The notes under the pieces were generated by a model. The model was not told the origin of the DNA. It ran no database searches and saw only the letters and a program-made list of their open reading frames with translations. Both the position numbers and the translations under genes were made by a program. DNA of 64,000 nucleotides from Ignavibacteria bacterium (lineage in GTDB: Bacteria; Bacteroidota; Ignavibacteria; Ignavibacteriales; Ignavibacteriaceae), in contig JAJTBZ010000064.1 of assembly GCA_021286645.1 (NCBI GenBank), forward strand, positions 1 to 64,000, read 5' to 3'. Positions 760 to 25,008 of this stretch are shown piece after piece; positions within the stretch are counted from its first letter, which is position 1, and each line of letters begins with the position of its first letter.

Positions 760-953
760 GCTCGAAACATCACGTTCATCGAGAAAAAATCCCGCTTTAC
801 CGAATTTCTTTAATGCTCCTGATATAAAATACCTATATTCATTGCTCAGCCCTGAAAAATGTGAATTTTTGCAGGATTGTTGGTGTATTCTTATCTACTC
901 GTTGTGGTTTCGCTCTGGATATAATATTTGAATTTATATTAAGGATTAATGAT

Positions 954-4523: not shown

Positions 4524-4541
4524 GGGTGGTAAAGGGTTAAT

Positions 4542-4571
4542 AAAAAAAGCGGACTTCGGTCCGCTTTTTTT
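4542..4571. terminator. Bidirectional intrinsic terminator
   Basis: A 6-bp GC-rich stem (GCGGAC/GTCCGC, 4549-4554 and 4559-4564) with a stable TTCG tetraloop, flanked by seven A on the left and seven T on the right. It lies between the convergent FN3 gene and the alkaline phosphatase gene and should stop transcription from both sides. Confidence 0.9.
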
Positions 4572-4598
4572 ATGCCTAAAAATAAAATAGTTGAATAA

Positions 4599-5675
4599 TT
4601 ACCGAACCAGATTAATGAGTTTTTTCCCGATGCCGCAATTATCCTGGACTCCTGAAAAGTTGATACCACCGGGGCCATAGCAGAAAACACCCACCATAGC
4701 AGCAGTATGCTTTTTTGAAACGAAAGTTATTTCCGGCTGAGTATCTCCCGGCTTACCATTTGTTATGCATGTTCCGCCTGTTTCATGATCAGCCGTAACC
4801 AGTACTAAAGTATTCTTATCCTTCATGGCGAACCTTAATGCAGCATTAATGGCAGTATGAAAATCCTTCAACTCGGCATACATGTTATCGCGTTCATTGT
4901 TATGGCAAGCCCAGTCAATCTGCGAGCCCTCAATCATAAGAACGAAGCCCTTGTTGTTTTTATTAAGGTGTTGTAATGCTGTTTCGGTCAGTTGTCCAAG
5001 GGAATAAGAACGCTGGCGGGCAGCGGGAACACCGTCTTTGGCGATGAGAGCATAAAAATCTTTAGTTGGAGGGTAAGTAAATAAGCTATCCGCGGAAGTG
5101 TAAACTGAATATCCTTTACCGGACAACTCATTGATTACCGGAGAGGAATCTTCAATATACTTGCCATCAACCTGTGGAGTGAAATACTGCAAGCCCCCTC
5201 CAATCATTACATTCCAATGATGCTGCGGGTATTGCCGCGCGATTTCAGATTCTTTATTTCGTTCATCCATATGCGAAACGAACGCTGCAGGCGTAGCATG
5301 AGTTAGGGTTGAAGTAACTACTACTCCTGTACTCTTTCCTTTTTCCCGGGCATATTCCATAATTGTTTTAATGGGTTTACCCTCCGGAGTTATTGATAAA
5401 TGCCTATTCGCAGTGCGTTGCCCGGTGGCTAAGGCAGTTGCCCCGGCTGCAGAATCCGTTATAAGTGCATCAGCCGAACAAGTAACTGAAAAACCGGTAA
5501 CGGGAAATTGTTTCCATGGGGCTAAGGTATCTGAAAAAAGCGCGGCTGAAACTTGCCCAATCCCCATGCCGTCTCCAATCAGGATAATAATATTCTTAGG
5601 TTTGCCATTATTTTTACCATAAATCGTTATGGAAGCAACCAATAGAAGGGCAGCAATAAGATGAAAAATTTTCAA
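4599..5675 (-). CDS. phoA: Alkaline phosphatase, PhoA family
   Basis: 358 residues with an N-terminal signal peptide (about 1-20), so periplasmic or secreted. It hydrolyses phosphomonoesters with two zinc ions and one magnesium. Family residues visible: metal-binding Asp35 in IGDGMG, nucleophile Ser75 in DSAAGATA, His126 in THATPAAF, Glu249/Asp254/His258 in EGSQIDWACHNN, Asp296-His297 in TADHETGG, and His323 in the HTAAMVGVFCYGPG block. It is shorter than the E. coli enzyme (about 450 mature) but all metal-site motifs are present, so it looks functional. Its ATG is 4 bases after the stop of ilvE, so it is probably co-transcribed with that amino-acid gene, which is unexpected for a phosphate-scavenging enzyme. 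No Pho box was identified. Closely related phosphodiesterases cannot be excluded. Confidence 0.9.
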   Translation of the reverse strand: MKIFHLIAALLLVASITIYGKNNGKPKNIIILIGDGMGIGQVSAALFSDTLAPWKQFPVTGFSVTCSADALITDSAAGATALATGQRTANRHLSITPEGKPIKTIMEYAREKGKSTGVVVTSTLTHATPAAFVSHMDERNKESEIARQYPQHHWNVMIGGGLQYFTPQVDGKYIEDSSPVINELSGKGYSVYTSADSLFTYPPTKDFYALIAKDGVPAARQRSYSLGQLTETALQHLNKNNKGFVLMIEGSQIDWACHNNERDNMYAELKDFHTAINAALRFAMKDKNTLVLVTADHETGGTCITNGKPGDTQPEITFVSKKHTAAMVGVFCYGPGGINFSGVQDNCGIGKKLINLVR

Positions 5676-5679
5676 TGAA

Positions 5680-6756
5680 TTACCTGCCGGCTTCTACAAG
5701 TTGCAGCCAATTATGCCGGTCAACTTCGTTCCCCATGTGAAGGCCAATTAGATAGGTAAACAGTGATTGTGCCAGTTCTCCGACCTGCCCGTTGTTTATT
5801 GGCATAATGGTATCTTTATATTTTAGTTCACCAACCGATGTGATTATTGCAGCAGTTCCGGTACCGAAAACATCGGTTACTTCGCCTGCATTATATCGTT
5901 GAATGAATTCATCAACGCTTAATACACGTTCGCGAACATTGTAACCCCGGTCCTTCAGGATCTGAATAACAGACATACGGGTAATCCCCGATAGAATGCC
6001 TCCTGTTAGTTGTGGGGTTACCACCTCATCTTTGAAGGCAACAAAGATATTCATTGTGCCTACTTCTTCAATATTCTTCAGTTCTATCGCATCAAGCCAC
6101 AAAACCTGGGTATAACCCTCTTGCTTGGCTATCTCTGCCCCTAAAAGGCTTGCCGCATAGTTACCGGGGGTTTTACATTCGCCCAACCCTTTGCGTACCG
6201 CCCTGACATATTCATCCTGTATGAGAATTTTTACCGGTTTAAATCCTTCGGGGTAATATGCCCCGACTGGTGAAAGGAGTAGTACAAATTTGAAATTTTT
6301 CGAAGGTTTTACGCCTAAAACCGCATCGGTACCAAAGAGAAATGGCCGAATATATAACGATTCCCCCGCTTTCGAAGGAATCCAGTCTTTATCTATTTTA
6401 ACCAATTCTTTTAGAGCTTCAGTCACTAAATTTATATCTACATCGGGCATGCACAACCTGCGGGAGGAGTTATTCAGGCGTTCAAAGTGTTTGTCGGGTC
6501 TGAATAATACTATATCACCTGAATTTTGTCTGAAAGCTTTTAGGCCTTCAAATGCAGCCTGTCCATAATGGATAAACATGGTAGCCGGGTGCATAGAGAA
6601 ATTTGCCAGGGGGCGGAATACCATGTTGTGCCACCCCTGTTCAGGTGAATAGTCCATTTCAAAAATGTGATCGGTAAAATATTGACCAAACCCTAAAGTA
6701 GTTGGTAATTCAGGTTTTTCTGTTCGTGGGGTAATATTATAGGTAAAGCCGCTCAT
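5680..6756 (-). CDS. ilvE: Branched-chain amino acid aminotransferase
   Basis: 358 residues, fold-type IV PLP enzyme of the eukaryotic-like BCAT group. It interconverts leucine, isoleucine and valine with their 2-oxo acids, using glutamate/2-oxoglutarate, in the cytoplasm. Evidence: HYGQAAFEGLKAFR near residue 63, the PLP lysine K195 in ECKTPGNYAAS, VLWLDA..KNIEEVGTMNIF, and the C-terminal GTGTAAIITSVG phosphate-binding block. Length is normal for the family. The start has AGAGGA six bases upstream. The alkaline phosphatase gene follows after 4 bases. No other ilv or leu gene is nearby. Confidence 0.95.
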   Translation of the reverse strand: MSGFTYNITPRTEKPELPTTLGFGQYFTDHIFEMDYSPEQGWHNMVFRPLANFSMHPATMFIHYGQAAFEGLKAFRQNSGDIVLFRPDKHFERLNNSSRRLCMPDVDINLVTEALKELVKIDKDWIPSKAGESLYIRPFLFGTDAVLGVKPSKNFKFVLLLSPVGAYYPEGFKPVKILIQDEYVRAVRKGLGECKTPGNYAASLLGAEIAKQEGYTQVLWLDAIELKNIEEVGTMNIFVAFKDEVVTPQLTGGILSGITRMSVIQILKDRGYNVRERVLSVDEFIQRYNAGEVTDVFGTGTAAIITSVGELKYKDTIMPINNGQVGELAQSLFTYLIGLHMGNEVDRHNWLQLVEAGR

Positions 6757-6833
6757 TCGAATCCTCTTTTGGAAAATAACTAAACTTGAATCAGTATTTA
6801 AGAAATTTCGGTGACTTATTAAACACGAAATTT

Positions 6834-9305
6834 TTACATTACATGCTGGGGATCAACATCAAAAGAAAGTGGTACGTTATTGAATTCAGATCGATTTTTG
6901 AATTCAACAAATGCCTCCCAAATAATTTTACGCAATATACTTCCGGTGGGGTCGGTAATCCGGTCGCTTTTTACCAGAATCTGGTATCGGTATTCGCCAC
7001 GAATTCGGGAAATAACTGCCGTACATGGAGGGGAGATGCGTAATATTTTTTTTGCGGGCTGCAAGAAATTGTAAAAATCAGAAATGGCCAGTTGAGCGTT
7101 TTTTTCCGATTTGTCTTTAACTTCTATAAGGCAAAGCCTGGAAAAAGGGGGATAGTGTAAGTTCCTACGTTTTTGCAATTCGGCTTTGTAGAAATTATCA
7201 TAGTCATGGAGGACTACTTTGGTAAGAACCGGGTGGCGATCGTTTTGAGTTTGAATTAATACTTCGCCTTTATGGATACTTCTGCCCGCGCGTCCTGCCA
7301 CCTGCGTTAATAGCTGAAAAGTTCGTTCATCAGCTCTGAAATCAGGAAGCCATAAATTGGTTTCAGCAGATATAACCCCGACAAGCGTCACGCGTGAAAA
7401 GTCGAGCCCTTTCGCGACCATTTGCGTACCTATCAGGATATCAGTCTGGCCGGAGCGGAAATCCCCAAGAATTCTGCTTAAACTGCCTTTTTTTGCAATT
7501 GCATCGGAATCAACACGCTGCATCCGGGCATTGGGGAAGTAGTAGGATAGTTCATCTTCTACCCGTTCGGTACCCATGCCGAAAAACCGAATTGAAGGCG
7601 ACCCGCATTTCGTGCATTGCTCGGGCACAATTTTTCGGTATCCACAATAATGACATTCAATAATATTGGAGTTGATATGATGAACAAGGGCGACTGAACA
7701 GTTTTCGCACATTTCCATTTCACCGCAATCAAAGCAGTAAACTTGTGTAGAGAACCCTCTTCTGTTTTGTAAGATAATTACACCCTCTTTTTTTACTAAG
7801 CGGTCGTTTATTTTATCGAGGAGAGTTTGTGAAAAAACATTCGACATAAATTTTTGTTTCTTTTCCTCGACAACATTTACTAACCTGATTTCCGGTAAAA
7901 CAGCGTCATCGGCACGCTCAGTAAGTTTTAATAGTGTATATTTACCGGTTTCTGCATTGTGCATGCTTTCAATTGAGGGAGTAGCAGAGCCAAGCACAAC
8001 GGGGCACCCTGCCAGTTTCGCACGCATAATACCGGTATCGCGGGCATGGTATTTGGGTGTAGTATCGGTTTGCTTAAAACTGGCATCATGCTCTTCATCG
8101 ATAACGATAAGGCCAATATTTTGTAAGGGCGCAAATAATGCGGACCGTGCCCCGATAACTACACGAACCTTTCCTTCCCGGATCATTTTCCACGTATCGA
8201 ACCGTTCTCCGGGGCTTATCTGGCTATGTATCACAACAACCTGCGAGCCGAATTTGGCAATGAAACGCGATGTTATTTGCGGAGTTAAGGAAATTTCAGG
8301 GACTAATATCAAGACTGATTTCCCTAATGCTAAAGCCTGTTTGGCCAGATCAAGATAAATTAATGTCTTGCCGCTGCCCGTTACACCATGAAGCAGAAAG
8401 ACCTGGAATTGTTGTTCCTGAATTGATTTGTTTACTATCTCATAAACATCTTTCTGCATAGCCGTTAGCTGGTAGTCCGGAAGATCATTGGCTAAAGTTT
8501 CCCGATGCTTCCGTTGCACTTTTTTGAAGAAGACACTAATGAGTCCCTTTTTTACTAAAGGTAATAGAACGCCTGATTTTAAACCTGTTTTACTTAAGAG
8601 AGTTTTAACGCTTACATCTTTTCGTGCGTATTCGGTCATAGTAAGCAATAGTAATGCCTGTTTGGGTGACCGATGTTCTATTACCGGAATTAGCTCATAT
8701 ATCGATTCAATAGGGGCTGTTAGTTTAACAAAGCGTTCTTTTTTCTCACGTACCCGGGCTTCAGGAAGCCGGTTATCGATAGTTATGATGCCCGTTAATT
8801 GTAATTTCCGAATAATTGAATAAATATTTTTCTTTTTAATCGCTTTCTGTAGGCGGGTTAGCGGGATTTTAGGATGCTCAATTAATACTTGCAGTATCTT
8901 CGCGAGAATGGTATTCTTTCTTTTGAGTGCAGATAATGCATCCCGGGAGACCTGCGGGTCGCTGATAAGATAGCGGGCGGATTGCATGTCGGTGCCGTAG
9001 GGTGTGCAGAGCCGTAATACCTCTCCAACTCCGCATAAATAATAATCTGCCATCCACTGGTACAGTTCAAGGTCTTTACGATCGATCACGGGGGATTCAT
9101 CGACAACTTCAAAAATATCTTTAATTTTCGAGATCTCAATTTCTCCCGCATCCTCTTTAACGAGCATGCAAAAACCGGTAAGTACACGCTTGCCAAATGG
9201 AGCCAGAACGCGTTTCCCAAATGCTATGGCATGTATCAGATCATCGGGGATATGGTACGTGAATGTTCGCCTGAAAGGTAAATAAAAAATAATTTCCGCG
9301 AACAT
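6834..9305 (-). CDS. priA: Primosomal replication restart helicase PriA
   Basis: 823 residues. PriA recognises stalled or repaired forks and reloads the replicative helicase; it is a 3'-5' superfamily 2 helicase. Domains in order: N-terminal 3'-binding domain (1-100), winged-helix region, helicase core with Walker A GVTGSGKT at 307-314 and DEEH at 403-406, an inserted double zinc-binding region with eight cysteines (C524, C527, C533, C536, C551, C554, C564, C567), then helicase lobe 2 (GTQMVAKGLDF, QVAGRAGR) and a C-terminal domain. The length fits the family. Its start is 6 bases after the stop of the upstream lipoprotein gene, so the two are likely co-transcribed. Confidence 0.97.
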   Translation of the reverse strand: MFAEIIFYLPFRRTFTYHIPDDLIHAIAFGKRVLAPFGKRVLTGFCMLVKEDAGEIEISKIKDIFEVVDESPVIDRKDLELYQWMADYYLCGVGEVLRLCTPYGTDMQSARYLISDPQVSRDALSALKRKNTILAKILQVLIEHPKIPLTRLQKAIKKKNIYSIIRKLQLTGIITIDNRLPEARVREKKERFVKLTAPIESIYELIPVIEHRSPKQALLLLTMTEYARKDVSVKTLLSKTGLKSGVLLPLVKKGLISVFFKKVQRKHRETLANDLPDYQLTAMQKDVYEIVNKSIQEQQFQVFLLHGVTGSGKTLIYLDLAKQALALGKSVLILVPEISLTPQITSRFIAKFGSQVVVIHSQISPGERFDTWKMIREGKVRVVIGARSALFAPLQNIGLIVIDEEHDASFKQTDTTPKYHARDTGIMRAKLAGCPVVLGSATPSIESMHNAETGKYTLLKLTERADDAVLPEIRLVNVVEEKKQKFMSNVFSQTLLDKINDRLVKKEGVIILQNRRGFSTQVYCFDCGEMEMCENCSVALVHHINSNIIECHYCGYRKIVPEQCTKCGSPSIRFFGMGTERVEDELSYYFPNARMQRVDSDAIAKKGSLSRILGDFRSGQTDILIGTQMVAKGLDFSRVTLVGVISAETNLWLPDFRADERTFQLLTQVAGRAGRSIHKGEVLIQTQNDRHPVLTKVVLHDYDNFYKAELQKRRNLHYPPFSRLCLIEVKDKSEKNAQLAISDFYNFLQPAKKILRISPPCTAVISRIRGEYRYQILVKSDRITDPTGSILRKIIWEAFVEFKNRSEFNNVPLSFDVDPQHVM

Positions 9306-9311
9306 ACAGAA

Positions 9312-9854
9312 TTATTTCGGCAGTGAGCGGAAAATAGAAATTAAATCCCGTGTCTCCTGTACAGCCTGACCGGATTGGAATTCGAATTCAAGTTTCGGTG
9401 TCCCTTCTTTCCAGATAATCCGTTGGTATTCATCATTTTTAATTATTTCACCGTTGGTATAAAGAACGGAATCTTCGGCTTGAAGTGTAAGGTAGTAATA
9501 TCCTTCATTGAATCGAATACCTTCGATTTTTTCAATATCGGTAAAGTCATATATAGCAACACCGTTGAGTTTATTATCATAAACATCAAGTTTACGCGAG
9601 GTTACATTCTTTCCTTCGCTTTTCATAGAATAGAGAAAATCATCGCTCTTCAGCATATAATCGAACAGATTTTTCTTATCGTCCTCAAATTCTCTATTCC
9701 CTGGCGCATCCGAACGAATATCGAAAAATTTCACGCTGACTGTCCCGGTTTTTTTTGTTTTCATAGATATCGAATATGAAACCTTTGAAACTACCAGGCA
9801 GCCGGGAAGGCTGAAAATGGCAACAGCTAAAATAAGAGCGTATAATTTTTTCAT
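9312..9854 (-). CDS. Putative lipoprotein, unknown function
   Basis: 180 residues. The start at 9854 is chosen because GGAAG lies just upstream; an earlier in-frame ATG at 9866 overlaps that ribosome binding site. The N-terminus is a signal peptide ending in a lipobox L-P-G-C, so the mature protein should be lipid-anchored. The rest is charged and beta-rich, with no catalytic motif that I recognise. A run such as GVAIYDFTDIEKIEGIRF suggests a strand-rich fold. It precedes priA by 6 bases with no functional link apparent. A 47-base imperfect palindrome lies 29 bases upstream of its start. Confidence 0.7.
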   Translation of the reverse strand: MKKLYALILAVAIFSLPGCLVVSKVSYSISMKTKKTGTVSVKFFDIRSDAPGNREFEDDKKNLFDYMLKSDDFLYSMKSEGKNVTSRKLDVYDNKLNGVAIYDFTDIEKIEGIRFNEGYYYLTLQAEDSVLYTNGEIIKNDEYQRIIWKEGTPKLEFEFQSGQAVQETRDLISIFRSLPK

Positions 9855-10246
9855 AATTACTTCCATTTATGTAATGAACATAAACGCCTCTATCCGCATC
9901 CCGCGTCGCGGGTTTCTGATACAGGCGTTCTGCTAAAAAAATCCAGATGAATAATTAATATAAATATATTTTAACGGAATTAAAACGATGGAAAATGGGC
10001 TTGACAGTGATGATTTGCAATCTGAAAAACGCTTCGGTTAGTGATGCAGAAGGTTTTTTTTGAGGATAAATTGACAATTAATTTATTTTATTGCAAATTA
10101 TAGCAAGATATTCCGGGGCGATGTATAATAATGCAAATATATTAAAATTCAAACCAAAGCATAAAATATTATTTAAGTAACTTTGTATGCGAAATTAATT
10201 GATAGTTATTGAGAGTTTGGAAGAAATATTTTAGTGTGAGGATTAT
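9855..10246. other. Intergenic region between divergent lipoprotein and sulP genes
   Basis: 392 bases without a gene. The left part holds an extended imperfect palindrome (listed separately). The rest is very AT-rich. TTGACA hexamers occur at 10001 and 10071 on the plus strand, and TATAAT at about 10126, but none pair at 16-18 bases, so no promoter is called with confidence. No small ORF with a ribosome binding site and no tRNA-like fold was seen. Confidence 0.5.
9883..9929. repeat. Extended imperfect inverted repeat upstream of lipoprotein gene
   Basis: Outer arms AACGCCT (9883-9889) and AGGCGTT (9923-9929), middle arms TATC/GATA, and an inner GC arm CCCGC/GCGGG (9900-9904 and 9908-9912) with a GTC loop, separated by a 1-base mismatch and a 5x5 internal loop. 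No T-run follows on either strand, so it is not a normal terminator. It could be an mRNA leader hairpin for the minus-strand lipoprotein gene, an operator, or a REP-like element. Only one copy was noticed in this window. Confidence 0.6.
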
Positions 10247-11938
10247 ATGATGCAGTTCAAACTTCCGCCAGATTTGCAGCCCAAATTATATACGATACTC
10301 AAAAAGGGATATCGGAAAGAATCGTTCTTCGCTGATCTGAGCGCCGGAGTAATAGTTGGTATTGTTGCTCTTCCCCTGGCAATTGCATTCGCAATTGCTT
10401 CCGGTGTAAAACCCGAACAGGGGCTCTATTCTGCAATTATTGCAGGACTGGTGGTTTCGGTTTTATCGGGGTCGCGGGTGCAAATATCGGGGCCTACCGG
10501 TGCTTTTATTGTTATTATTTATGGAATTGTTCAGCAATATGGTTACGACGGTCTGGCGATTGCAACGATACTCGCGGGAATATTTCTGATTATTCTCGGC
10601 ATCGTGCGGTTCGGCATATTATTGCGATTTATTCCACACGCTCTTACGGTAGGATTTACCTCCGGAATAGCAATAATAATATTTAGCAGCCAGATAAAAG
10701 ATTTTTTTGGGCTAAAAACCGGGGCATTGCCTGCCGAATTTATTGAGAAATGGTCTGTTTATATAAATACATTTTCATCCGTTAATGTATTCGCGTTAGC
10801 AGTAGGTGCGGCATCGCTTCTTATAGTGTTTCTCTGGCCGCGTTTAAATGTAAAAATTCCGGGCTCGCTTGTAGCAATTTTGTTAAGTACAGTTGCGGTT
10901 TCTATGTTTCATCTTCCGGTTGAAACTATCGGAACGCGCTTTGGGCAAGTGCCAAATACTTTGCCTATGCCAAAGATTCCTGCTCTGAGTTGGCATGTTA
11001 TTACGCAAATGGTTTCCCCGGCATTTACTATTGCAATGCTTTCGGCAATTGAGTCATTACTCTCTGCTGTAGTAGCAGATGGTATGATGGGAACCAGGCA
11101 CAGGTCGAACATGGAATTGATAGCTCAAGGGGCGGGTAATTTAATCTCTCCATTATTCCTGGGTATTCCGGTAACCGGTGCGATAGCACGTACGGCGACG
11201 AATATCAAAAATGGCGGCCGCACGCCGGTATCCGGTATCATTCACGCGATTGTATTAATCATCATTATGCTATTTCTGGCGCCGTATGCATCGCTTATAC
11301 CTATGGCATCGCTGGCGGCAATTCTTATATATGTTTCATACAATATGAGTGAATGGCGGAGCTTTGTAAAAACATTGAAAGCTCCGGTTTCAGACAGGGC
11401 TATTCTCCTTATTACATTTTTGCTCACATTGTTTGTTGATCTGACCGTGGCTATTGAGGTCGGGCTTGTATTTGCAGCCTTGTCATTCATTAAGAAAATG
11501 TCCGATGTTACCGAGGCTAAATTCCTTACAGAAGCAATTCGGGCATCGGGTGAATCGGAGGATACGAATGAAGTGCGTTTCCAAATGAAAGATATACCAC
11601 AGGGTGTAGAGATATTTGAAGTATATGGCTCATTGTTCTTTGGGGCAGTTGATCAGTTTCGGGAATCAATCAGGCAACTTGAAAAACCGCCGCGTGTAAT
11701 TATATTAGAAACCACAAAGATGCTTGTGATCGACGGAAGCGGGTTGAAAGCTCTGGAGGATTTACTTGGGCAGCTTGAAAAAAGTAAAACAAAGCTTATT
11801 GTTACCGGTATGCATAAGCAGCCACTGTTCGAGCTTACCCGTTCGGGTTTGCTCGATCAAATAGGTGAAGATAATTTTTATGGCAGTATTCCAGAAGCTT
11901 TGGAAAAAGCTAATCTTCGTCCATCAGGTCAACAATAA
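10247..11938 (+). CDS. SulP-family anion transporter with STAS domain
   Basis: 563 residues. N-terminal half to residue ~430 has many membrane segments with SulP signatures (AGVIVGIVALPLAIAFAIA near residue 33, SGPTGAFIVI near 85, and IPVTGAIARTATNIKNGG near 305). The C-terminal ~120 residues form a cytoplasmic STAS domain (VEIFEVYGSLFFGAV, then MLVIDGSGLKAL). SulP members move sulfate, bicarbonate or other anions with sodium or protons; the substrate cannot be told from sequence, and no carbonic anhydrase or sulfur-assimilation gene is beside it. Start ATGATG at 10247 follows GTGAGGA. Its last 29 bases overlap the 3' end of the convergent AI-2E-type gene. Confidence 0.92.
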   Translation: MMQFKLPPDLQPKLYTILKKGYRKESFFADLSAGVIVGIVALPLAIAFAIASGVKPEQGLYSAIIAGLVVSVLSGSRVQISGPTGAFIVIIYGIVQQYGYDGLAIATILAGIFLIILGIVRFGILLRFIPHALTVGFTSGIAIIIFSSQIKDFFGLKTGALPAEFIEKWSVYINTFSSVNVFALAVGAASLLIVFLWPRLNVKIPGSLVAILLSTVAVSMFHLPVETIGTRFGQVPNTLPMPKIPALSWHVITQMVSPAFTIAMLSAIESLLSAVVADGMMGTRHRSNMELIAQGAGNLISPLFLGIPVTGAIARTATNIKNGGRTPVSGIIHAIVLIIIMLFLAPYASLIPMASLAAILIYVSYNMSEWRSFVKTLKAPVSDRAILLITFLLTLFVDLTVAIEVGLVFAALSFIKKMSDVTEAKFLTEAIRASGESEDTNEVRFQMKDIPQGVEIFEVYGSLFFGAVDQFRESIRQLEKPPRVIILETTKMLVIDGSGLKALEDLLGQLEKSKTKLIVTGMHKQPLFELTRSGLLDQIGEDNFYGSIPEALEKANLRPSGQQ

Positions 11939-14753: not shown

Positions 14754-15278
14754 GTGTCAGCAAAGCATACAAATCAAACAGGCCCCAAGACCGCATTCGG
14801 GCGCTTCATGGTTTATAAATTTATCCCTCAATATGCCAATAACGTACAGGGATTGGTATATATGGGTGCTGCATTCCTGATTATTATTGTTGGTTTACGC
14901 GGCCTCGGTACGGTTGCATATACCATATCAATTGTTCCGCCATTCTTGTTGGATAGCGCAACTCATAAAGTAAGTGCAAACTGGGTAATGATTGCACTCT
15001 TTCTGGAGTTTACACTTCTAATGACTCTGGCTGTTGTTACTATGTTTACACCCGAAGATATGGGTGCCCCGGAACCTTCTGAGCATGGGCACCAAGGTCA
15101 ATCGGAAGATATCGTTCGTATTAAACAGGCACTGAGCGAATTAAAAGAAGTTGCCGATGAAGATCTGAAGGTTCTGAATACGTACATTGAACAAATCAAT
15201 AATGTAAACAAAAAGTTAGTACAGACTAAAGCCGACTTTTTCAAGTCTCTTACAGAATTGAAAACGCTCTTTAAATAA
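14754..15278 (+). CDS. gldL: GldL/PorL-like inner-membrane motor protein of T9SS
   Basis: 174 residues starting at GTG 14754, with AAGGAGAG seven to eight bases upstream. Two hydrophobic helices (about 32-50 and 77-98) are joined by a short loop and followed by a charged, helix-rich cytoplasmic tail (110-174) with coiled-coil character. Helix 2 carries an acidic residue inside the membrane span (E85 in ALFLEFTLL), as GldL and PorL do; in those proteins the helix-2 glutamate is needed for proton-driven motion. In known systems GldL pairs with GldM to power secretion and gliding. The next gene has GldM-like topology, which supports the call. Direct similarity by eye is modest, so this rests on topology, the buried glutamate, gene order and the T9SS cargo at the left of the window. 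Confidence 0.6.
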   Translation: MSAKHTNQTGPKTAFGRFMVYKFIPQYANNVQGLVYMGAAFLIIIVGLRGLGTVAYTISIVPPFLLDSATHKVSANWVMIALFLEFTLLMTLAVVTMFTPEDMGAPEPSEHGHQGQSEDIVRIKQALSELKEVADEDLKVLNTYIEQINNVNKKLVQTKADFFKSLTELKTLFK

Positions 15279-15312: not shown

Positions 15313-15939
15313 ATGGCAAAAGGCGGCTCAGGCGCTAAAATGCTGTACTTCGTACTGTATATAGTACTTATTACAGAGTTACTTATAGTTATTACAGAGC
15401 GCGACGAACTGGAAGAGACTGAAAATCACATCAGGCAGAATTTAATTGGCAGCATTGCTAATTCATATAAAATGCCTATTCAACTTTCGGTTACTCCAAA
15501 ATCTTTAGATTATAACGTCGCAGCCGAAGAAGAAAAAGATGCAACCATTGTTATATCGGTTTTAGGGTTAGTAGCTGATGAAGAGAAAAAATCAGTGAAA
15601 TTTTATGTTGATGTAGATCCTTCATCCAAAGCACCGGAAGGCTGGCCTTCTGGCGGTATTTCAACCGATAAACCTTCAGGCAACTACCGGGTTATGAACG
15701 ATGAGCAAGGCGGCGCGCGCTTCCTCGCGAAGTTAAAATCAGAAGGCGATTTCAAGTTTTCTGTTTACTGCCAGGTAGAGCGGAAATTCCCGGAATACCT
15801 GAAAGATACTCCATTGTTAGACTCACTGAAAGCTAAGGTAGGAGGACTAACACTGGCAACCAGTAACAAAGATAAATTCACGATTAGCGCGAAGCGTCAG
15901 GGTGGCGTAAAGAAAAAAGGCGCGGAAATCGTATTTTAA
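15313..15939 (+). CDS. GldM-like inner-membrane protein, N-terminal half
   Basis: 208 residues, ATG at 15313 after AAGGAGAT. One N-terminal hydrophobic helix (about 10-28) follows a short Gly/Lys-rich leader (MAKGGSGAK, then LYFVLYIVL), much like the start of GldM/PorM. The remaining 180 residues would face the periplasm and look beta-rich, with an ILIG-type linker after a charged ERDELEETEN helix. GldM normally has one such helix plus four periplasmic domains in about 515 residues; this protein is long enough for only one or two. The following gene is a secreted beta-rich protein, so together (about 565 residues) they could equal one GldM. Function as the periplasmic shaft of a GldL motor is inference. 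Confidence 0.5.
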   Translation: MAKGGSGAKMLYFVLYIVLITELLIVITERDELEETENHIRQNLIGSIANSYKMPIQLSVTPKSLDYNVAAEEEKDATIVISVLGLVADEEKKSVKFYVDVDPSSKAPEGWPSGGISTDKPSGNYRVMNDEQGGARFLAKLKSEGDFKFSVYCQVERKFPEYLKDTPLLDSLKAKVGGLTLATSNKDKFTISAKRQGGVKKKGAEIVF

Positions 15940-15979: not shown

Positions 15980-16025
15980 ATGTAATTTTGAAACTCTATT
16001 GACAAAACACAGAGGTAGTATTTCC

Positions 16026-17099
16026 ATGAAAAAAATATTTTTTATTGCAATGGTATTATTTGCGTGCACGGGTTTATTACAAGCACAAAAAGTAACGCCT
16101 AAAGATACCATTCGGGTGGCTGTATTAGAAAATTTTAATGCTCCCTCTGCCGGTGCTCTGGTTATGGCAAATGTGCTGAAATTAGATATTTCGGCTGAAT
16201 TGCTGGATGCTAACTTAAAAAAATTGAGAGACATTACGAAGATTACACAACGCCCGAAAAAAGAAGATATGGCTAAAGCGGCCAGTGGTGGCCGTGGCAC
16301 AACTGTCTGGGCAGTTTTTTCAGATATGGTTGAAGAACCGGGCACTTATTATGTAAAAGCCAGTGTTAATATGTCGGGCGAGCTGGGATCGGCAAAGCAG
16401 GATGTGTATTTTATGGTAATTGCTTCGCAGCCAACTATTGCCGCGCCAGTGAAATTGCGCGATAAATACTTTTTTGGGGAGAAGGAAACATTTAGCTTTG
16501 CTACTGTAAACTATCCTGATCCCAACGCCTATAGCTATCAGGTAGCTGATGGCAGCGGCCAGATACTATATAAAGGTAACGGCCCTGTTGTTCGTATGGA
16601 TTCCGCGTTTAATATGGTAACCAATTGTGGTAAAAAAATTACCATCAAAGGCTTTTATCAGGGTAAACCATTCCTGTATAAAGAAGCGGGCAGCGAAAAA
16701 TCGCGTGCGTCTTCGTGGGAATGTAATTTACAGCAACCGGTAATTAGCGAATTCTGCGAATGGAAAAAAGATAAATCCGATGAGAATTATCTGATTAGTA
16801 TTGAAAATGATATGGCAAAACAGTTCTTCTTTATTTATACCGGAGATACACCTGGTGGATTTTCTGTAACAGTACCTGATATTCAGGGGTTACGGGTTGC
16901 TTCCGAGCCGGAAAACTTTATTGCCGGTGCATCGGTTCGCAAATCTCGTCCATTTGCCATTGTTGATATTAAAGTTAATGAAGAATTCATGAATCAGATG
17001 AAAGTTGGCGATTCACAGAATATTAAATTGCATGTTTCATTCCGCACTCAGTTTGGTGAAACATATAATAAAGATTTTTACGCAGTAGTTATAAAATAA
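16026..17099 (+). CDS. Secreted beta-rich protein, possible GldM C-terminal half
   Basis: 357 residues. The ATG at 16026 is preferred over an upstream in-frame TTG at 15999 because GAGG precedes it and it opens a clean signal peptide (1-20, ending LLQA-Q). The mature part appears to hold several Ig-like beta domains: around 95-130 with VKASVNMSGELGSAKQDVYF, around 140-230 with GEKETFSFATVNYPDP, and a C-terminal domain ending VSFRTQFGETYNKDFYAVVI. A GGRG stretch sits near residue 88. No catalytic motif. The position directly after the GldM-like membrane gene suggests it supplies the distal periplasmic domains of GldM in trans. This is inference; it may instead be a separate periplasmic partner. 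Confidence 0.5.
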   Translation: MKKIFFIAMVLFACTGLLQAQKVTPKDTIRVAVLENFNAPSAGALVMANVLKLDISAELLDANLKKLRDITKITQRPKKEDMAKAASGGRGTTVWAVFSDMVEEPGTYYVKASVNMSGELGSAKQDVYFMVIASQPTIAAPVKLRDKYFFGEKETFSFATVNYPDPNAYSYQVADGSGQILYKGNGPVVRMDSAFNMVTNCGKKITIKGFYQGKPFLYKEAGSEKSRASSWECNLQQPVISEFCEWKKDKSDENYLISIENDMAKQFFFIYTGDTPGGFSVTVPDIQGLRVASEPENFIAGASVRKSRPFAIVDIKVNEEFMNQMKVGDSQNIKLHVSFRTQFGETYNKDFYAVVIK

Positions 17100-17134: not shown

Positions 17135-18652
17135 ATGATACAGAAAATCATACAAATGGTAATATTGTGTGGCTTTTTGCTGCCTGTATTTGGCCAAAAC
17201 CTGGATGAGCTGTTAGATCAGGTTGATCTTAAGCTTCGAAAGGATAAGAGATACTTAAACATCAATTATGTGGTGTTCCCCAATAATAAAATTGGCGAAG
17301 AACTGAAAAACCTTCCCCGATTGAATTATCGGGAGCCAATCTCATTCAAAGCAGCTGATAACATCACATACAATATTGTATTCCTGAAAGAGGCAGTTGG
17401 TATAGATTCGCTGGTACTCTTATATGTTGACCAGATTACCGATCGCAGCCAGGGAGATAATACGGGTATGTTTAGTGCTACCGGCGGCCCGCAAAGCGAT
17501 ACGGTAAAAGCTCTGAACTTTAAGGATTTGTATAATTTGCAGAGAGTTCGCCCGGAAGCATATAAGGCTTTATTAACAGAAGTTAACCGCTTTATTCGCG
17601 AAAATCCTGATCAGCAGCCCAGTTCATTGCTGAAAATTCTTCCTGATGAAGATATTAAGACCAGTTTGGGAGTTGCCTCACGTGACAATACAGATTATCT
17701 AAATTATATGCGTGCTAACTACATGCATTGGTACCCCAAAGCAAAAGTAGAAAAGAAAGGGAAACGCGGTGCGGCAGTTGCTACTGCAGATTCTATCAAT
17801 TATCGAATTGAAGCAGGTTTCTCCCGTTTTACTTTCTCGCATCGCTCCATGGATTTTTCTCTTGGTGGTGCCAGTATAGAATTAGGTACTTCAGAAAAAG
17901 TTCTTAACCTTGTACCGTATCAGTCAATGGCTGTTACCGGTGGATTTAGAACTTTGGTAAACATTGCACAAAAGAAAGAAGATATTGATAAATCATTTAT
18001 CATTGATGCCCGTCTGCTGGTGCGGCTATCGCTAAACTCGGAAAGCATGGCAAAGGTACCTTTCGCAATGGTTTCAAGTCCTAAACTAATGGTTGGTAAT
18101 GCCGCGGGTTTAGACGTAACACTTACCCGTCCTTTTGGTTTACCGGTAATCAATTTATTCGTTATGACCGGCTCAGAGCCTTCGTTAAAGAATCCCCCGA
18201 TGAGGTTGGTTAATAAAGATGGTAAATATGTAGCATATTACAATATATCATCCCTCGAAGGATCGATGTCGTTCTTCTGGAATACCAGCGAAACAATGAC
18301 CTCGCGTTTCCGTCTCGATGTTGGCGCGGGCTACTACGATGTTCATGAAGCGCAGTACACAAGCGCTTATAGCAGCACAATTGGAAAATCTCTGATTCAG
18401 GACGATTTTTATCCGATGATTGCTTTACATTTTAATTTTGCACCAGGCGGGGCCGATATATTTGGCGCGATGATCAAAACACTTGATAGCCAGGTGAAAG
18501 CAGAAGGCTGGCTTAAAGTTATGGAACTTGAAGGCGGCCACGTGTTCCGGTTTGCTGCTGCTATTGTATCACCTCCTTTGGCTCGTGAAAAGAGATTGTG
18601 GGAAAGTGATGGCGGCGCGTTAGTTGAAGTACGTTACAGATATGGTTTTTAG
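17135..18652 (+). CDS. Module protein A: exported, beta-barrel-like, unknown
   Basis: 505 residues, ATG at 17135 with GGGAG upstream. Signal peptide 1-20. The N-terminal ~200 residues are mixed helix/strand and end in a conserved-looking SRDNTDYLNYMRAN block. A basic linker (KKGKRG) follows. The C-terminal ~270 residues alternate polar and hydrophobic positions with many aromatics and finish in VRYRYGF, a terminal aromatic typical of outer-membrane barrels. It is clearly homologous to the gene at 20117: shared anchors are xDNTDYLxYxxAN, F/S-F-A/S-H-K/R-SMD, FFWNxSExxTxRxRxDxGxGxYD and the RYRY end. Position after GldL/GldM-like genes suggests a T9SS outer-membrane part. I do not recognise a named family. 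Confidence 0.6.
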   Translation: MIQKIIQMVILCGFLLPVFGQNLDELLDQVDLKLRKDKRYLNINYVVFPNNKIGEELKNLPRLNYREPISFKAADNITYNIVFLKEAVGIDSLVLLYVDQITDRSQGDNTGMFSATGGPQSDTVKALNFKDLYNLQRVRPEAYKALLTEVNRFIRENPDQQPSSLLKILPDEDIKTSLGVASRDNTDYLNYMRANYMHWYPKAKVEKKGKRGAAVATADSINYRIEAGFSRFTFSHRSMDFSLGGASIELGTSEKVLNLVPYQSMAVTGGFRTLVNIAQKKEDIDKSFIIDARLLVRLSLNSESMAKVPFAMVSSPKLMVGNAAGLDVTLTRPFGLPVINLFVMTGSEPSLKNPPMRLVNKDGKYVAYYNISSLEGSMSFFWNTSETMTSRFRLDVGAGYYDVHEAQYTSAYSSTIGKSLIQDDFYPMIALHFNFAPGGADIFGAMIKTLDSQVKAEGWLKVMELEGGHVFRFAAAIVSPPLAREKRLWESDGGALVEVRYRYGF

Positions 18653-18667
18653 TGAGGAGATAAGAGC

Positions 18668-20062
18668 ATGAGAAAAATAAATATTCTATTAGGAATGGTA
18701 ACGGCATTCGTTTTTATCTCGGGTAGCTTGTTCGCTCAGGAAAAACCAATGACTGACTATGAAAAAGTACAGGCTATTTATAACAGCCTTGAATATAATA
18801 CCCTTGCATTTAATGATTTAAAGCAGAAATGGGTAATCAGCGATCCATTATTGGTTCGTGAAGTATATAATCGCTTCGTTGTTCGTGATGCCTTACGTCA
18901 TGGAGGAAACAAAATGACCCTGGCGCAGGTGAAAGAACGCACAGAATCAATTTACAATGGCTCTGTAGTTATTGACTTAAGAAAACGGTACTATGATGAT
19001 GAAATTGAATATTTCGCATTCGTGCCGGAAGATCAATTGCAGGCAGAAAATCCTAACTTTTTAGCCGATCCGGTTAAGGATCCTTTCCTTTTGCAGGATA
19101 TAATTGGTGCAAAGTTGTATGAGAAAATACGTACCCAGGGTTATTTTTACAGCAATTTAACCAAATCGGTTTATGATACGAAAAACGGATATTTCTATGA
19201 TGTATATCTAAACGCGCTGGAACCGCATGTAATGTATTGGAATACTACTTCAAGCGGCAGGAATAAATACTTACTAAGTTTATTCGGTAAGTGGGGTGAA
19301 GATCAGCTTACATTGCCGGGCTGGTATTCCGGTGAATATATTGTTGGTACCGCGTTAACGTATTATCAATCAATTACCAGCGATCCTTCGAAATATTTAT
19401 ATGATTTCCGCGCTGGTATTGCAGTAAAATCAGGGCGACCGTTCTTATCTGATTTTAAGGGACGCCAAATTTTACAGCCAACAGGACAGGCGGCATACTT
19501 CAGAGCCTCGGGCGATGTGTTAAAGTATATCATCAGCGGTGCAGAAGGGTATTACCTCAATGTTGAATTCAAATATACGGTAAATGTATATAGTGCTAAA
19601 GAATTCAAACCTGAATTTCAGGACACCATATCTTCTGTTCGCAATTTCGGAATAGTTGAAATCAGGAAAAAAGATATTGCCAGTTTGGGCGATTTCGGAA
19701 ATCTGGAAGTTGGCGGCGGAATAGCAACATCCGATTACTATCGTTATCTAATCTCACCAACCAGTTCGAAACTCACAGATATTGATTCAAAGAAAGGATT
19801 TGTATCAAAATTCAGGCATAATGTTTTCGTTGAAGCGGGCTTATCTCGCACAGGTGGATTAATTCAGCATCAGGTAAACTTCCAGCTGAGTTACGATACA
19901 GAAGGTTTTAGCTCCTTTGGTGTAATGGGTAAAGTTATGCTCAGTGATCAGTTGGGTCTTGACCTCCGTGTTATGCAGGGGTTTGGATTGGATACTCCGA
20001 CAAAACGGTGGCGACCTGATACCTACATTGTATTCTCACCGATTCTTAGAATCAACTATTAA
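18668..20062 (+). CDS. Module protein B: exported, possible GldN-position protein
   Basis: 464 residues, ATG at 18668 with GAGGAG upstream, 15 bases after protein A. Signal peptide 1-23 ending LFA-Q. An N-terminal domain of about 130 residues carries LEYNTLAFNDLKQKW, DPLLVREVYNRFVV and VIDLRKRYYDDEIE. The rest is strand-rich, includes VMYWNTTSSGRNKYLLS and PGWYSGEYIVG, and ends YIVFSPILRINY, which looks like the last strand of an outer-membrane barrel. The gene at 21636 is a paralogue sharing all these blocks. In known loci GldN follows GldM, so B is a positional candidate for GldN, but I cannot see GldN motifs and the length is greater (GldN is about 335). Treat as unknown. Confidence 0.6.
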   Translation: MRKINILLGMVTAFVFISGSLFAQEKPMTDYEKVQAIYNSLEYNTLAFNDLKQKWVISDPLLVREVYNRFVVRDALRHGGNKMTLAQVKERTESIYNGSVVIDLRKRYYDDEIEYFAFVPEDQLQAENPNFLADPVKDPFLLQDIIGAKLYEKIRTQGYFYSNLTKSVYDTKNGYFYDVYLNALEPHVMYWNTTSSGRNKYLLSLFGKWGEDQLTLPGWYSGEYIVGTALTYYQSITSDPSKYLYDFRAGIAVKSGRPFLSDFKGRQILQPTGQAAYFRASGDVLKYIISGAEGYYLNVEFKYTVNVYSAKEFKPEFQDTISSVRNFGIVEIRKKDIASLGDFGNLEVGGGIATSDYYRYLISPTSSKLTDIDSKKGFVSKFRHNVFVEAGLSRTGGLIQHQVNFQLSYDTEGFSSFGVMGKVMLSDQLGLDLRVMQGFGLDTPTKRWRPDTYIVFSPILRINY

Positions 20063-20070
20063 GCATTTAG

Positions 20071-20091
20071 GGGGACGGGCTAACCGTCCCC
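20071..20091 (+). other. Intercistronic hairpin without T-run
   Basis: GGGGACGG (20071-20078) pairs with CCGTCCCC (20084-20091) around a 5-base loop. The sequence after it (TCTTATC) is not a T-run, so termination is doubtful. It separates the first A-B pair from the second and could protect or separate mRNA ends. Confidence 0.6.
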
Positions 20092-20116
20092 TCTTATCAA
20101 TTCAGAGCGTAACACT

Positions 20117-21646
20117 ATGAGACAAATATATACGTTATTTCTTTGTATAATCATCGTTCCCCTTTGGGTTTCGGCTCAAAGTGTAGTGGACGATTTTTAT
20201 CTCAAAATTGAAAAGAAACTTGCTCTCGATAAAAAATATCTCAATCTGTATGCCCTGAATTTTCAGGCTACACCCGATGAGGCTGCAGCACTTGGTAGTT
20301 TTAAGAGGGCCAATGGAGAATCGGTGTCTTTTCAGAGTAAGGAAAATTTATCCTATAGTATTGTTCTACTAAAGGAAAACTTTGAAATTGATACACTTAC
20401 ACTTATTGCTGTGAAGAAAATTGAGGATAAGGCCGCATCAAGCGACAAGTTTTTTAGCGATGCAACCTCAGGCCCTAAAACAGATACCAGTTTGGTTCTT
20501 ACATTTCGCGACCTGCAAGAGATGTATTTTTCACAGAATGCAGCTTATAGACGTTTATTGGATTTCGTACAAAAGCGCATGGCACAGGAAGATGCCGTTT
20601 CGTTACTCGGTCTGAATGTCAGCGATAAAGCTACGAAAAGCAGAAGCGTTACCAGTGCCGATAACACCGATTATTTATTGTACTCCAAAGCAAATTCTAT
20701 ACATCGGCTGCCGAAGTTTTCGGAAGATGTAAAGAAACCGGCAGTTGCCAGAAGACGTGGCGCTCAGGCTGAACAGGCTGCTACAGATAATGATTATTCG
20801 CTCGATGTAAGTCTTTCGCGCTGGTCATTCGCCCATAAATCAATGGATATGCCATTTGCCTCATTGAGTTCTGAACTAAGCACTGAAACGAGGGCGCTAA
20901 ACTTAACTCCCTGGACTTCTATGTCGTTAAACGCGGGTGTCAGGGCTCTGTTCGCTATTCCCAAATCAGGAGTTACAGCAAATCTGAAACAGGATTTTCT
21001 GATTGATGCAATTATTGGCGGACGTATGCGGCTAAATACATCTACATGGATGGGTAAAATTCCATTCGTGTTTGGTGGTAAACCTTCTCTAAATATTGGT
21101 CCCGGCCTGATTATGGATATTACCGGTTCGAGGGCATACGACTTACCTTTTTTCAACATTTACTATGCCGTTGGATCGGTTGATGTTTCTACTCCCTACG
21201 TGCATACAGGAGAGGGCGATACTACTTCCGCGTATTTTTCATTTAAGCAGTGGGAGGCTTCATTCGCGTTCTTTTGGAATTCGAGCGAAGAAAGAACCCT
21301 TCGGTATCGAATGGATATCGGTGTAGGGAATTATGATATTTATCTTGCTGATTATGTTAAAGGTAAGGCGCAGGGCAATCGAATGATCCATAATAAAATC
21401 AATCCGCTTGTTGCGCTTTCTGCCACCTTCGCGCCGCAAAATATCGACTTCCTGAGCATGGGAGCGAAATACTATGATGGAAGGATTACCCTGAATTTTT
21501 GGCTAAGAGTATTCGAACTCTCACCGAATAATGTTTTCAGGCTTGAAGCGAAATACATTACTACTCCGGTTATGAGAAGTCTTTATCCTTGGGAATCTAC
21601 CGAGAGCAACTCTATTGTACAAATACGGTACCGTTATGCGATGTAA
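20117..21646 (+). CDS. Module protein A': paralogue of protein A
   Basis: 509 residues with a signal peptide (1-20, ending VSA-Q). Same architecture as the gene at 17135: helical/strand N-terminal domain, TSADNTDYLLYSKAN block, basic linker with RRRGAQ, SRWSFAHKSMD, FFWNSSEERTLRYRMD, and a C-terminal end IVQIRYRYAM. The N-terminal domains are well diverged (different lengths and low identity by eye), while barrel-side motifs are better kept, so the duplication is old. Both copies look intact. The last residue is Met rather than the aromatic residue seen in A. Likely an outer-membrane or periplasmic subunit working with B'. Unknown function. Confidence 0.6.
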   Translation: MRQIYTLFLCIIIVPLWVSAQSVVDDFYLKIEKKLALDKKYLNLYALNFQATPDEAAALGSFKRANGESVSFQSKENLSYSIVLLKENFEIDTLTLIAVKKIEDKAASSDKFFSDATSGPKTDTSLVLTFRDLQEMYFSQNAAYRRLLDFVQKRMAQEDAVSLLGLNVSDKATKSRSVTSADNTDYLLYSKANSIHRLPKFSEDVKKPAVARRRGAQAEQAATDNDYSLDVSLSRWSFAHKSMDMPFASLSSELSTETRALNLTPWTSMSLNAGVRALFAIPKSGVTANLKQDFLIDAIIGGRMRLNTSTWMGKIPFVFGGKPSLNIGPGLIMDITGSRAYDLPFFNIYYAVGSVDVSTPYVHTGEGDTTSAYFSFKQWEASFAFFWNSSEERTLRYRMDIGVGNYDIYLADYVKGKAQGNRMIHNKINPLVALSATFAPQNIDFLSMGAKYYDGRITLNFWLRVFELSPNNVFRLEAKYITTPVMRSLYPWESTESNSIVQIRYRYAM

Positions 21647-23051
21647 ATATACTTGTGTGAAAATATTTTTCTATGTATGTATTGCTTTGTTTGCCCGGCC
21701 TGCATTCTCACAGACCCCGGTTTCCGCGGATGCGAAAATGGAGAGGCTGAAAAAAATATATCAAGGCCTTGAATACAATACGGCATCTTTTAATGATTTA
21801 AAACGGACGTGGATTGTAACTGATCCGGTTTTTGTTCGTGAAATCTTTAATAAGTTCGTTGTTAAAAATGCACTGCGCGTAAATGGTAAAAAACCGCGGC
21901 TGGCAGTGCTCGAAGAAAACGCTAAAAGAATTTATGATGGCGAAGTTTTTATCGATTTACGTAAGCGGTATTATGACGATGAAATTGAAGTTCTTCGTTT
22001 CTTTAAAGAAAGCCGACATGTTGATGAAGATACTTCCGATTATTTTTTTGACGCGGTTAATGATTTCGTTTTCATTAAGGAAATATGTGGCGATGAGTTA
22101 TATGCCGACCTGAAAAAACAGGGGTATGCACTTAATGATATTACAAAAACATTTTTCGATTATAAACCTGCATATAATTTCATTGCTTATTTCAGTCTTA
22201 CGGATCCGGAATTGATGTTCTGGAATACAACTACGAATAAACGTAATAAGTACTTTCTTTCTGCAATTGGCAGATGGGGTAATGACCATATTGCTATTCC
22301 CGGCTGGTATCATCCGGAATATGTAGTGGGCTTAAAATTGAATTATGTAGATTCTTTGGAAAACAACAAAGAGGGATACACCTATATTGGTGAAATCGGT
22401 TTGGGGTTGCCTTCAGTACAGCCGGACTTAGGTTTTGACAATTCCTTTTCCGGCAGGCGTCTTGAACATTCCGGAACTTCATTTTATTTGAAGTTTGTTG
22501 GAAAACCTTTAGGAGCCCTTACACCTGAACTTGCCTCCACTGAAATTAATTTAACCGCACTCTTTACTATAGGTACAAAAAAAGCTCAGGATTTTGAAGA
22601 AACCTCCCCGAAGTATTTTTATTCTACAAGAAATTACTTTGATTTATTCTTTAAGTGGAATAATCTGGGAAGAGTATCAGATTTCGGTTCGGTGAATGCC
22701 GGTTTTGGTGTCTCGGGATTCGATCTTGATTATTATTATTTCGATCCCTCAGTACCGAGTCTTAATATGCCGAAGAATCAGTACACCAATGGTTTTAAGT
22801 ATGCAATAGTTGCAGAGGGAAATCTCGCAAATACCGGCAGTATTTTAAGTCATAGTTTTGGTTTACAACTCAGCTATAATGCCACCGAGCAGCTTATGTT
22901 TTTTGGAGTGAAAGCTAATATAATGATATCTAATTCAATAGGTTTAGACTTTAAGGTGCTTTCGCCTATTCAGACAGGTTCGAAATTACGGCCCGATTAT
23001 CGGCCGGATTCGTATCTGGTATTATCTCCAATCATAAAAATTAACTACTAA
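21636..23051 (+). CDS. Module protein B': paralogue of protein B
   Basis: 471 residues from the ATG at 21636, which overlaps the stop of A' by 11 bases and suggests translational coupling. No good ribosome binding site is seen, and a GTG at 21657 that opens straight into the signal peptide is an alternative; the in-frame TTG at 21615 is less likely. Signal peptide ends PAFS-Q. It shares with B the blocks LEYNTASFNDLKRTW, DPVFVREIFNKFVV, FIDLRKRYYDDEIE, MFWNTTTNKRNKYFLS, PGWYHPEYVVG and the end YLVLSPIIKINY. The middle differs by insertions. Probably exported to the outer membrane like B. This gene ends the locus; the next gene is convergent. Confidence 0.6.
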   Translation: MRCKYTCVKIFFYVCIALFARPAFSQTPVSADAKMERLKKIYQGLEYNTASFNDLKRTWIVTDPVFVREIFNKFVVKNALRVNGKKPRLAVLEENAKRIYDGEVFIDLRKRYYDDEIEVLRFFKESRHVDEDTSDYFFDAVNDFVFIKEICGDELYADLKKQGYALNDITKTFFDYKPAYNFIAYFSLTDPELMFWNTTTNKRNKYFLSAIGRWGNDHIAIPGWYHPEYVVGLKLNYVDSLENNKEGYTYIGEIGLGLPSVQPDLGFDNSFSGRRLEHSGTSFYLKFVGKPLGALTPELASTEINLTALFTIGTKKAQDFEETSPKYFYSTRNYFDLFFKWNNLGRVSDFGSVNAGFGVSGFDLDYYYFDPSVPSLNMPKNQYTNGFKYAIVAEGNLANTGSILSHSFGLQLSYNATEQLMFFGVKANIMISNSIGLDFKVLSPIQTGSKLRPDYRPDSYLVLSPIIKINY

Positions 23052-24027: not shown

Positions 24028-24171
24028 CCAAATCCTTTAAATTACGTGATTGACCAATTCGATGCGCTTAATTTAATAAAAAAAATGGTTTTTTATATTG
24101 ATTTGCATTACATTTTTTTTCTTTAATTTAAATAATATGAAATAGCGAACTGTAATAAAAAGGATGATGTG

Positions 24172-25008
24172 ATGAAGCGCAGTATTTGGAGGACTTTTCT
24201 GATTATTTTTATCGTTGTAGGTACACGTGCGTTCGCTCAGGAAGGAGGAGATGGGAATGGGGTGGAAATATTTCTCATAGAGTCATTTGTGCCACAGGAG
24301 TCGCCAAATCAATTCTATTTAACGGTCTATACAAGTGTGCGTTGCCGCTCAAAGGTAATTCTAAACAATAAATACGCTTTTACTATCTCAGATTCGCTTA
24401 CCGATAATCATAAGGCAGTACTCGATATTTCTGCCGTTAAAGCGGATTCTCTTTCTATCCCGTTTGTAATAGAAGTAACCGATTCGCTTAACGTTAAAAC
24501 TGTTAGTGAGAAATACGAAATTATTTTACCCTCAGTGGAAAAGGCCCCTCAGGGCGGCGGCGAGTTTGCTTCCTGCCTGTATGGAGCATTGATTTACGCG
24601 ATACCCGTTGTTGACGGATATCGACAGGATGCACAAAATAGATGGGGTTTTTCGAAAGAATTCCCCATACTTAGTTTCTTCCAGGGCGGCTACAATTACC
24701 CTTCATCGTTTGTATCGGCCGAATATTCTCATGTATTCAAATCTGAAGAGAATTATTTGAGATTGGGATGGAAATATTTAATTCCTACAGTCGCGGGTGA
24801 GTATTTTGTTCTGGGTTTAAACGGAGCCACAAATTTTAAGGGATATAATGGAATTAGTCCTGAGGCGACCTGGGGAGTATTATCGTTAACAAATGAATTT
24901 TCATTATTTATCAGATATAGATATACAACAAACTTCGAAAACCCCGCTCGATCCTATTCGAATATTTCGATTGGATTGTATACGTGGTTCTTTTCAAAGC
25001 ATATGTAG
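24172..25008 (+). CDS. Exported beta-rich protein, unknown
   Basis: 278 residues. ATG at 24172 is chosen (AGGA 7 bases upstream) over a GTG three bases earlier. Signal peptide ends RAFA-Q. An N-terminal domain (about 30-125) looks Ig-like: FYLTVYTSVRCRSKVILNN, then DSLTDNHKAVLDIS. After a Gly-rich linker (about 130) the C-terminal ~150 residues have amphipathic strands with many aromatics (FIRYRYTTNF, ISIGLYTWFFSKHM), suggesting a small outer-membrane barrel. The architecture echoes module protein A but without its marker motifs. It stands alone between a minus-strand enzyme gene and xseA. No function is proposed. Confidence 0.6.
   Translation: MKRSIWRTFLIIFIVVGTRAFAQEGGDGNGVEIFLIESFVPQESPNQFYLTVYTSVRCRSKVILNNKYAFTISDSLTDNHKAVLDISAVKADSLSIPFVIEVTDSLNVKTVSEKYEIILPSVEKAPQGGGEFASCLYGALIYAIPVVDGYRQDAQNRWGFSKEFPILSFFQGGYNYPSSFVSAEYSHVFKSEENYLRLGWKYLIPTVAGEYFVLGLNGATNFKGYNGISPEATWGVLSLTNEFSLFIRYRYTTNFENPARSYSNISIGLYTWFFSKHM

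Follow-up and report, generated by a model that had tools for sequence, protein, structure and literature searches.

A seven-gene operon of an Ignavibacteria bacterium, read in the order L-M1-M2-A-B-A'-B' from the open reading frames of the window (the whole analyzed stretch of 64,000 nucleotides), raises the question of what two tandem pairs of exported proteins do beside genes that resemble those of the GldLM motor. Few rotary machines driven by ions are known. Among them is the motor of type IX secretion (T9SS) and gliding, which the literature searched treats in Bacteroidia, together with GldK/GldN. A relative that branches deeply and has a split shaft and other outer-membrane partners would reveal which parts of the machine are essential, and would be a natural test of how torque is transferred from an inner-membrane motor to the outer membrane. 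No description of the operon was found in the open-access literature searched, in keeping with a previous sequence-only reading of this DNA that singled it out as a candidate undescribed system. The features of the operon are listed in Table 1.

Table 1. Genes and selected residues of the L-M1-M2-A-B-A'-B' operon (window coordinates).
Feature	Position	Strand	Description
L	14754..15278	+	GldL-like inner-membrane protein, 174 aa; cytoplasmic C-terminal tail predicted
L R49	codon 14898-14900		
L E85	codon 15006-15008		
M1	15313..15939	+	208 aa; TM helix ~6-31 and periplasmic region; split GldM-like, N-terminal half
M2	15999..17099	+	exported periplasmic; split GldM-like, C-terminal half
A	17135..18652	+	505 aa; C-terminus RYRYGF; signal peptide, periplasmic domain, predicted barrel
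B	18668..20062	+	464 aa; C-terminus SPILRINY; signal peptide, periplasmic domain, predicted barrel
A'	20117..21646	+	509 aa; diverged A copy
B'	21636..23051	+	471 aa; diverged B copy; ATG at 21636 overlaps the A' end

The positions and lengths first assigned to A, B, A', and B' agree with those in the table. All four frames are intact and each protein begins with a hydrophobic, signal-peptide-like N-terminus, also as first described. The C-terminal residue is F or Y in three of the four, as in outer-membrane barrels, and M in A'. For M2, the ATG at 16029 is a likelier start than that at 15999, the signal peptide then being MKKIFFIAMVLFACTGLLQAQ. Downstream of B', the neighboring gene is hydrolase-like and lies on the opposite strand. 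Neither a giant repeat-protein gene nor a DUF2254 gene, both discussed below, adjoins the operon in the window; a DUF2254 remnant was looked for in the window and none was found. No GldK or GldN gene adjoins L and M there. An exported 279 aa protein of unknown family is encoded at 24169-25008 (+), and in several relatives too it adjoins a metal-hydrolase-like gene and xseA.

The two barrel pairs are diverged copies of each other. At the protein level, A and A' align end to end with 33% identity over 515 columns (E 6e-89), and B and B' with 35% identity over 468 columns (E 8e-102). This whole-protein similarity is far above chance and confirms the tandem A-B-A'-B' duplication proposed from the letters alone. 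A and B have no significant match to each other. DNA-level similarity between the copies is confined to a single 225-bp stretch (68%), and the duplication must therefore be old. The host genome holds two copies of the A family, both within this operon. A tree of 68 A proteins separates a clade of A' copies (support 100/99) from one of A copies (86/84), and the class-level relatives with a single pair branch outside both (100/98). Similarly, the B' of the window groups with the B' copies of other genomes in the B tree. A single ancestral duplication, with both copies retained, would explain the A-B and A'-B' pairs. A few lineages (G070, L132, L136) appear to have lost A'-B'. Conversely, L144 has the order L-M1-M2-A'-B'-giant, in which only the A'-B' pair is kept with the motor. 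The first reading suggested that the two pairs form alternative or hetero-oligomeric assemblies driven by one motor; either may be the case, and the long parallel retention of both pairs favors specialization.

AlphaFold2 models of A (pLDDT 80) and B (pLDDT 78), each built from a 25-sequence alignment, both contain a barrel. In the model of A, a signal peptide is followed by a periplasmic alpha/beta domain of ~200 aa and a 12-14-strand barrel at residues ~223-505. In that of B, the periplasmic domain has ~150 aa and the barrel occupies residues ~179-464. Structure prediction had been proposed as a check, and the models agree with the suggested outer-membrane location; the description of A and B as exported proteins with predicted outer-membrane barrels is well supported. 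Residues 188-505 of A match FadL/OmpG-type barrels with Z up to 14.8 (a chain of PDB 8gl6 is among the structural matches), and the barrel of B does so with Z up to 13.5, at ~4-10% identity and with the N-terminal domains barely covered. Foldseek searches with the two models returned generic barrels only, with low TM-scores. The modeled likeness to FadL-type barrels, PorV included, is thus a generic one, a common fold by which alone function is not identified, and A and B differ from this group in having an extra N-terminal domain and no family match. Pfam and NCBIfam scans of all seven proteins gave nothing meaningful, and profile searches of A and B against PDB sequences gave nothing; as the first reading had stated, no named family can be assigned to A or B.

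Known T9SS components were considered as relatives of A and B. Like the GldK/GldN (PorK/PorN) ring, A and B follow M in the operon and take the place on the outer-membrane side. However, they are predicted barrels of 460-510 aa, and in profile comparison their similarity to GldN and GldK is confined to the signal peptide. PorP was likewise rejected: beyond the signal peptide there was no profile match to four PorP-like proteins, and the PorP/SprF model TIGR03519 matched none of A, B, A', and B'. The loose analogy to gldN/gldO that had been drawn is therefore not supported.

The barrels could instead belong to an energized outer-membrane transporter, resembling TonB/ExbBD in function, in which the motor works FadL- or porin-like A and B proteins to move a small molecule or polymer in or out. 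For both barrels, FadL-type transporters and OmpG are the top structural matches, the barrels occur in pairs, and the adjacent giant gene is absent in the window and several relatives. On the other hand, M is GldM-like (see below) rather than ExbD/TonB-like, the Pfam and NCBIfam scans matched no plug or TonB-dependent receptor family, and giant T9SS cargo frequently adjoins B'. The barrel type does not discriminate, since FadL-like barrels also serve as T9SS shuttles (PorV). We consider such a transporter unlikely.

The nature of the motor genes became apparent from relatives in which M is a single protein of ~500 aa. The M1 profile matches the N-terminal part of these fused M proteins (96-98%) and the M2 profile the C-terminal part (91-97%). 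The two matches follow one another along fused M, so that the A-B branch has a split M; in the window, as in the A-B relatives whose loci were read, M1 and M2 are encoded separately. Profile-profile comparison of 30 fused M with 32 GldM sequences gave a probability of 90.6% (E 1.3e-6) over 179 collinear columns, in which residues 222-411 of fused M align with 236-422 of GldM. The controls gave 0.6% for the reversed GldM profile and ~0 for column shuffles. For M, significance was reached only once the fused class-level relatives were added: neither M1 alone nor M2 alone was significant against GldM, nor was hhalign of L, M1, and M2 against GldL/GldM with small alignments. M1 and M2 of the window have no family match in Pfam or NCBIfam, and a profile search of M2 against PDB sequences gave nothing.

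L has two TM helices predicted from hydropathy (~30-61 and ~73-100). An arginine at the end of TM1 and a glutamate within TM2, corresponding to R49 and E85, are invariant across 15 divergent relatives from the class. E85 is likewise invariant in a set of 15 close relatives. In the Flavobacterium motor, GldL E49, in the second helix, is essential and proton-linked (PMC8986121), and the invariant TM residues of L are taken as equivalent to it. Comparison of the L and GldL profiles gave 25% (p 8e-4), covering both TMs and placing the glutamates in register. With the reversed control giving 6.8%, this is only suggestive of a relationship. The GldL model TIGR03513 does not match L, and a profile search against PDB sequences found chance-like matches only, mostly to coiled coils. 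The neighboring genes had been described as GldL/GldM-like; for M this is upheld by the strong profile match through its fused relatives, and for L it stays at the level of a suggestion.

In view of the M-GldM homology via fused M and the suggestive match between L and GldL, the best reading of L-M1-M2 is that of a distant relative of the GldLM motor in which M is split. As in GldLM/PorLM of Flavobacterium and Porphyromonas, a two-helix protein with an essential-type glutamate in TM2 adjoins one that has a single helix and a long periplasmic part, and the host genomes have SprA and T9SS cargo. In contrast, L is not recognized by the GldL model, and GldM is one polypeptide with a TM and four periplasmic domains, whereas here M1 and M2 are divided and M2 is exported separately. 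The locus also differs in lacking GldK and GldN, with A/B barrel pairs as the outer-membrane partners. In another genome of the phylum (G112), the locus L107 at 787-5636 (-) encodes divergent GldL-like and GldM-like proteins, the latter matching GldM at 7e-11. Next come proteins of 311 aa and 661 aa, the second of which is apparently an outer-membrane barrel fused to a GldK-type domain, the GldK-type assignment being made by eye.

A search with A across 148 genomes of the phylum found relatives in 7, several of which have two copies 3 kb apart, and within the class, 16 of the 245 genomes are positive with the B profile. Scanning public genomes for B gave 38 loci, almost all in Ignavibacteriota MAGs; a search of phages gave none. 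A survey of gene order had been put forward as a further check, and the neighborhoods read show that the L-M1-M2-A-B(-A'-B') block is kept across Ignavibacteriales. The full unit in relatives is usually a DUF2254 membrane-protein gene followed by L-M1-M2-A-B-A'-B', and the A-B-A'-B' order recurs in many Ignavibacteriales genomes. The operon is also carried by a MAG labeled Melioribacter roseus. In more distant families of the class, the block is L-M1-M2-A-B and has one barrel pair. Some loci have a T9SS-sorted S8 protease upstream of the operon.

The motor is more widely distributed than the barrels. Relatives of L were found by profile in 66 of 149 class genomes, with up to four per genome, and many of them adjoin a single M protein of ~500 aa. 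Two genomes of the class (G218 and G201) have parallel L-M-OMP-OMP operons. For the G218 operons, a full-length match links the second barrel to B (93%), and a match within the barrel region links the first to A (85%). Because these operons repeat the layout, a motor followed by a barrel pair is a recurring design.

Such a distribution bears on whether the operon serves the lineage as its general motor for type IX secretion, which would replace GldKLMN and power SprA for all cargo. SprA is present in 244 of the 245 class genomes, TIGR03513 is above its cut-off in none of the class members listed, and other families of the class have L-M pairs without A-B nearby, as might be expected of a general motor. 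However, so few genomes have B, and Ignavibacteriales without A-B have SprA, yet L and M are undetected in them; GldL, L, and M all escaped detection in many SprA-carrying Ignavibacteriales genomes (e.g., G019, G031, G132, and G247). SprA in these genomes is thus independent of the operon. Since A-B is rare, SprA is near-universal, and L and M are undetected where A-B is absent, an accessory machine is more likely than a class-wide general T9SS motor, and we regard the latter as distinctly improbable. Being carried by part of the class only, the operon again departs from GldLM/PorLM. SprA without a detectable GldLM-type motor raises the question of the energy source of type IX secretion in these organisms.

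A possible cargo of the accessory machine is indicated by the gene that follows B'. In ~15 of 25 readable loci, a giant repeat-protein gene lies directly after B'. The four giants followed to their ends have 4,635-5,413 aa and 44-52 Ig-like repeats of ~93 aa, and the giant repeat protein has a C-terminal T9SS-type sorting domain (CTD) that is type A-like. No giant gene follows any of the nine readable A-B-only loci; the Fisher p of 0.002 is optimistic, as the loci are related and the count, tallied by hand from the neighborhoods read, is not corrected for kinship. Judging by this linkage, A'-B' may be the cargo-linked copy. No giant adjoins B' in the window and nine other A'-B' loci. Nor is the association exclusive, and the giant repeat protein was rejected as a diagnostic of A-B: almost all Ignavibacteriales genomes tested contain the repeat, and G051, which lacks A-B, encodes a repeat protein of ~4,800 aa. 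Genes for PorP/SprF shuttles adjoin type B CTD adhesins (PMC12618676). A and B resemble these shuttles in that the gene for an outer-membrane barrel adjoins that for a large T9SS-secreted surface protein, and differ from them in being longer and paired, in having a periplasmic domain, and in the type A-like CTD of the neighboring cargo. The window itself encodes, at 861-4523 (+), a protein of 1,220 aa that combines fibronectin-type domains with a C-terminal T9SS sorting domain.

A narrower possibility is that the operon is strictly a gliding engine, in which the motor drives the giant fiber along the cell surface as GldLM does with SprB. The giant T9SS-sorted neighbor of B' and the homology of the motor to GldM are consistent with it. 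Against it, no gliding phenotype was found in the literature searched for these uncultured genomes, and loci such as that in the window have no adjacent giant gene. A strict gliding function therefore seems unlikely.

Our main reading is a proton-motive-force-driven envelope machine related to GldLM/PorLM, with a split M and A/B barrel pairs, that probably serves giant T9SS fibers. As a whole we give it an even chance, and its motor and barrel parts are well supported. L would form a two-helix ring carrying the TM2 glutamate and be driven by the proton-motive force, possibly in a 5:2 assembly. M1, providing the TM and first periplasmic part, would combine with the separately exported M2 into a GldM-like shaft. 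This shaft may act through physical coupling on outer-membrane complexes of A and B, each with a periplasmic domain and a beta-barrel, which would stand where GldK/GldN and PorP/SprF stand in Flavobacterium. A'-B' would be a specialized second complex served by the same motor. From the neighboring cargo, we infer that the A/B machine would most likely export, hold, or move surface fibers that are long and T9SS-sorted.

The operon suggests that Ignavibacteria have an undescribed class of energized cell-envelope machines. More tentatively, and with a chance that we put slightly short of even, Ignavibacteria and related orders may have an undescribed GldLM-type motor family that occurs in several paralogous forms per genome and works with barrel pairs other than GldKN. 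One branch would have divided GldM between a stub in the membrane and a shaft exported on its own, and would have duplicated the barrel pair to give two specialized complexes for giant surface fibers.

Variants of the layout and other envelope systems were also observed. The most divergent L-M1-M2-A-B operon (L063 in G265, 6122-10350) is followed by two PD40-CarboxypepD_reg-OmpA proteins, whose domain make-up is PorE-like. In L181 (G140, 6949-10753), L-M1-M2 with a split M is followed by a single exported 302 aa protein where A-B would stand. Elsewhere in the window, 49355-52084 (-) encodes a protein in which a patatin-like phospholipase is joined to POTRA and Omp85 domains in a type Vd-like manner.
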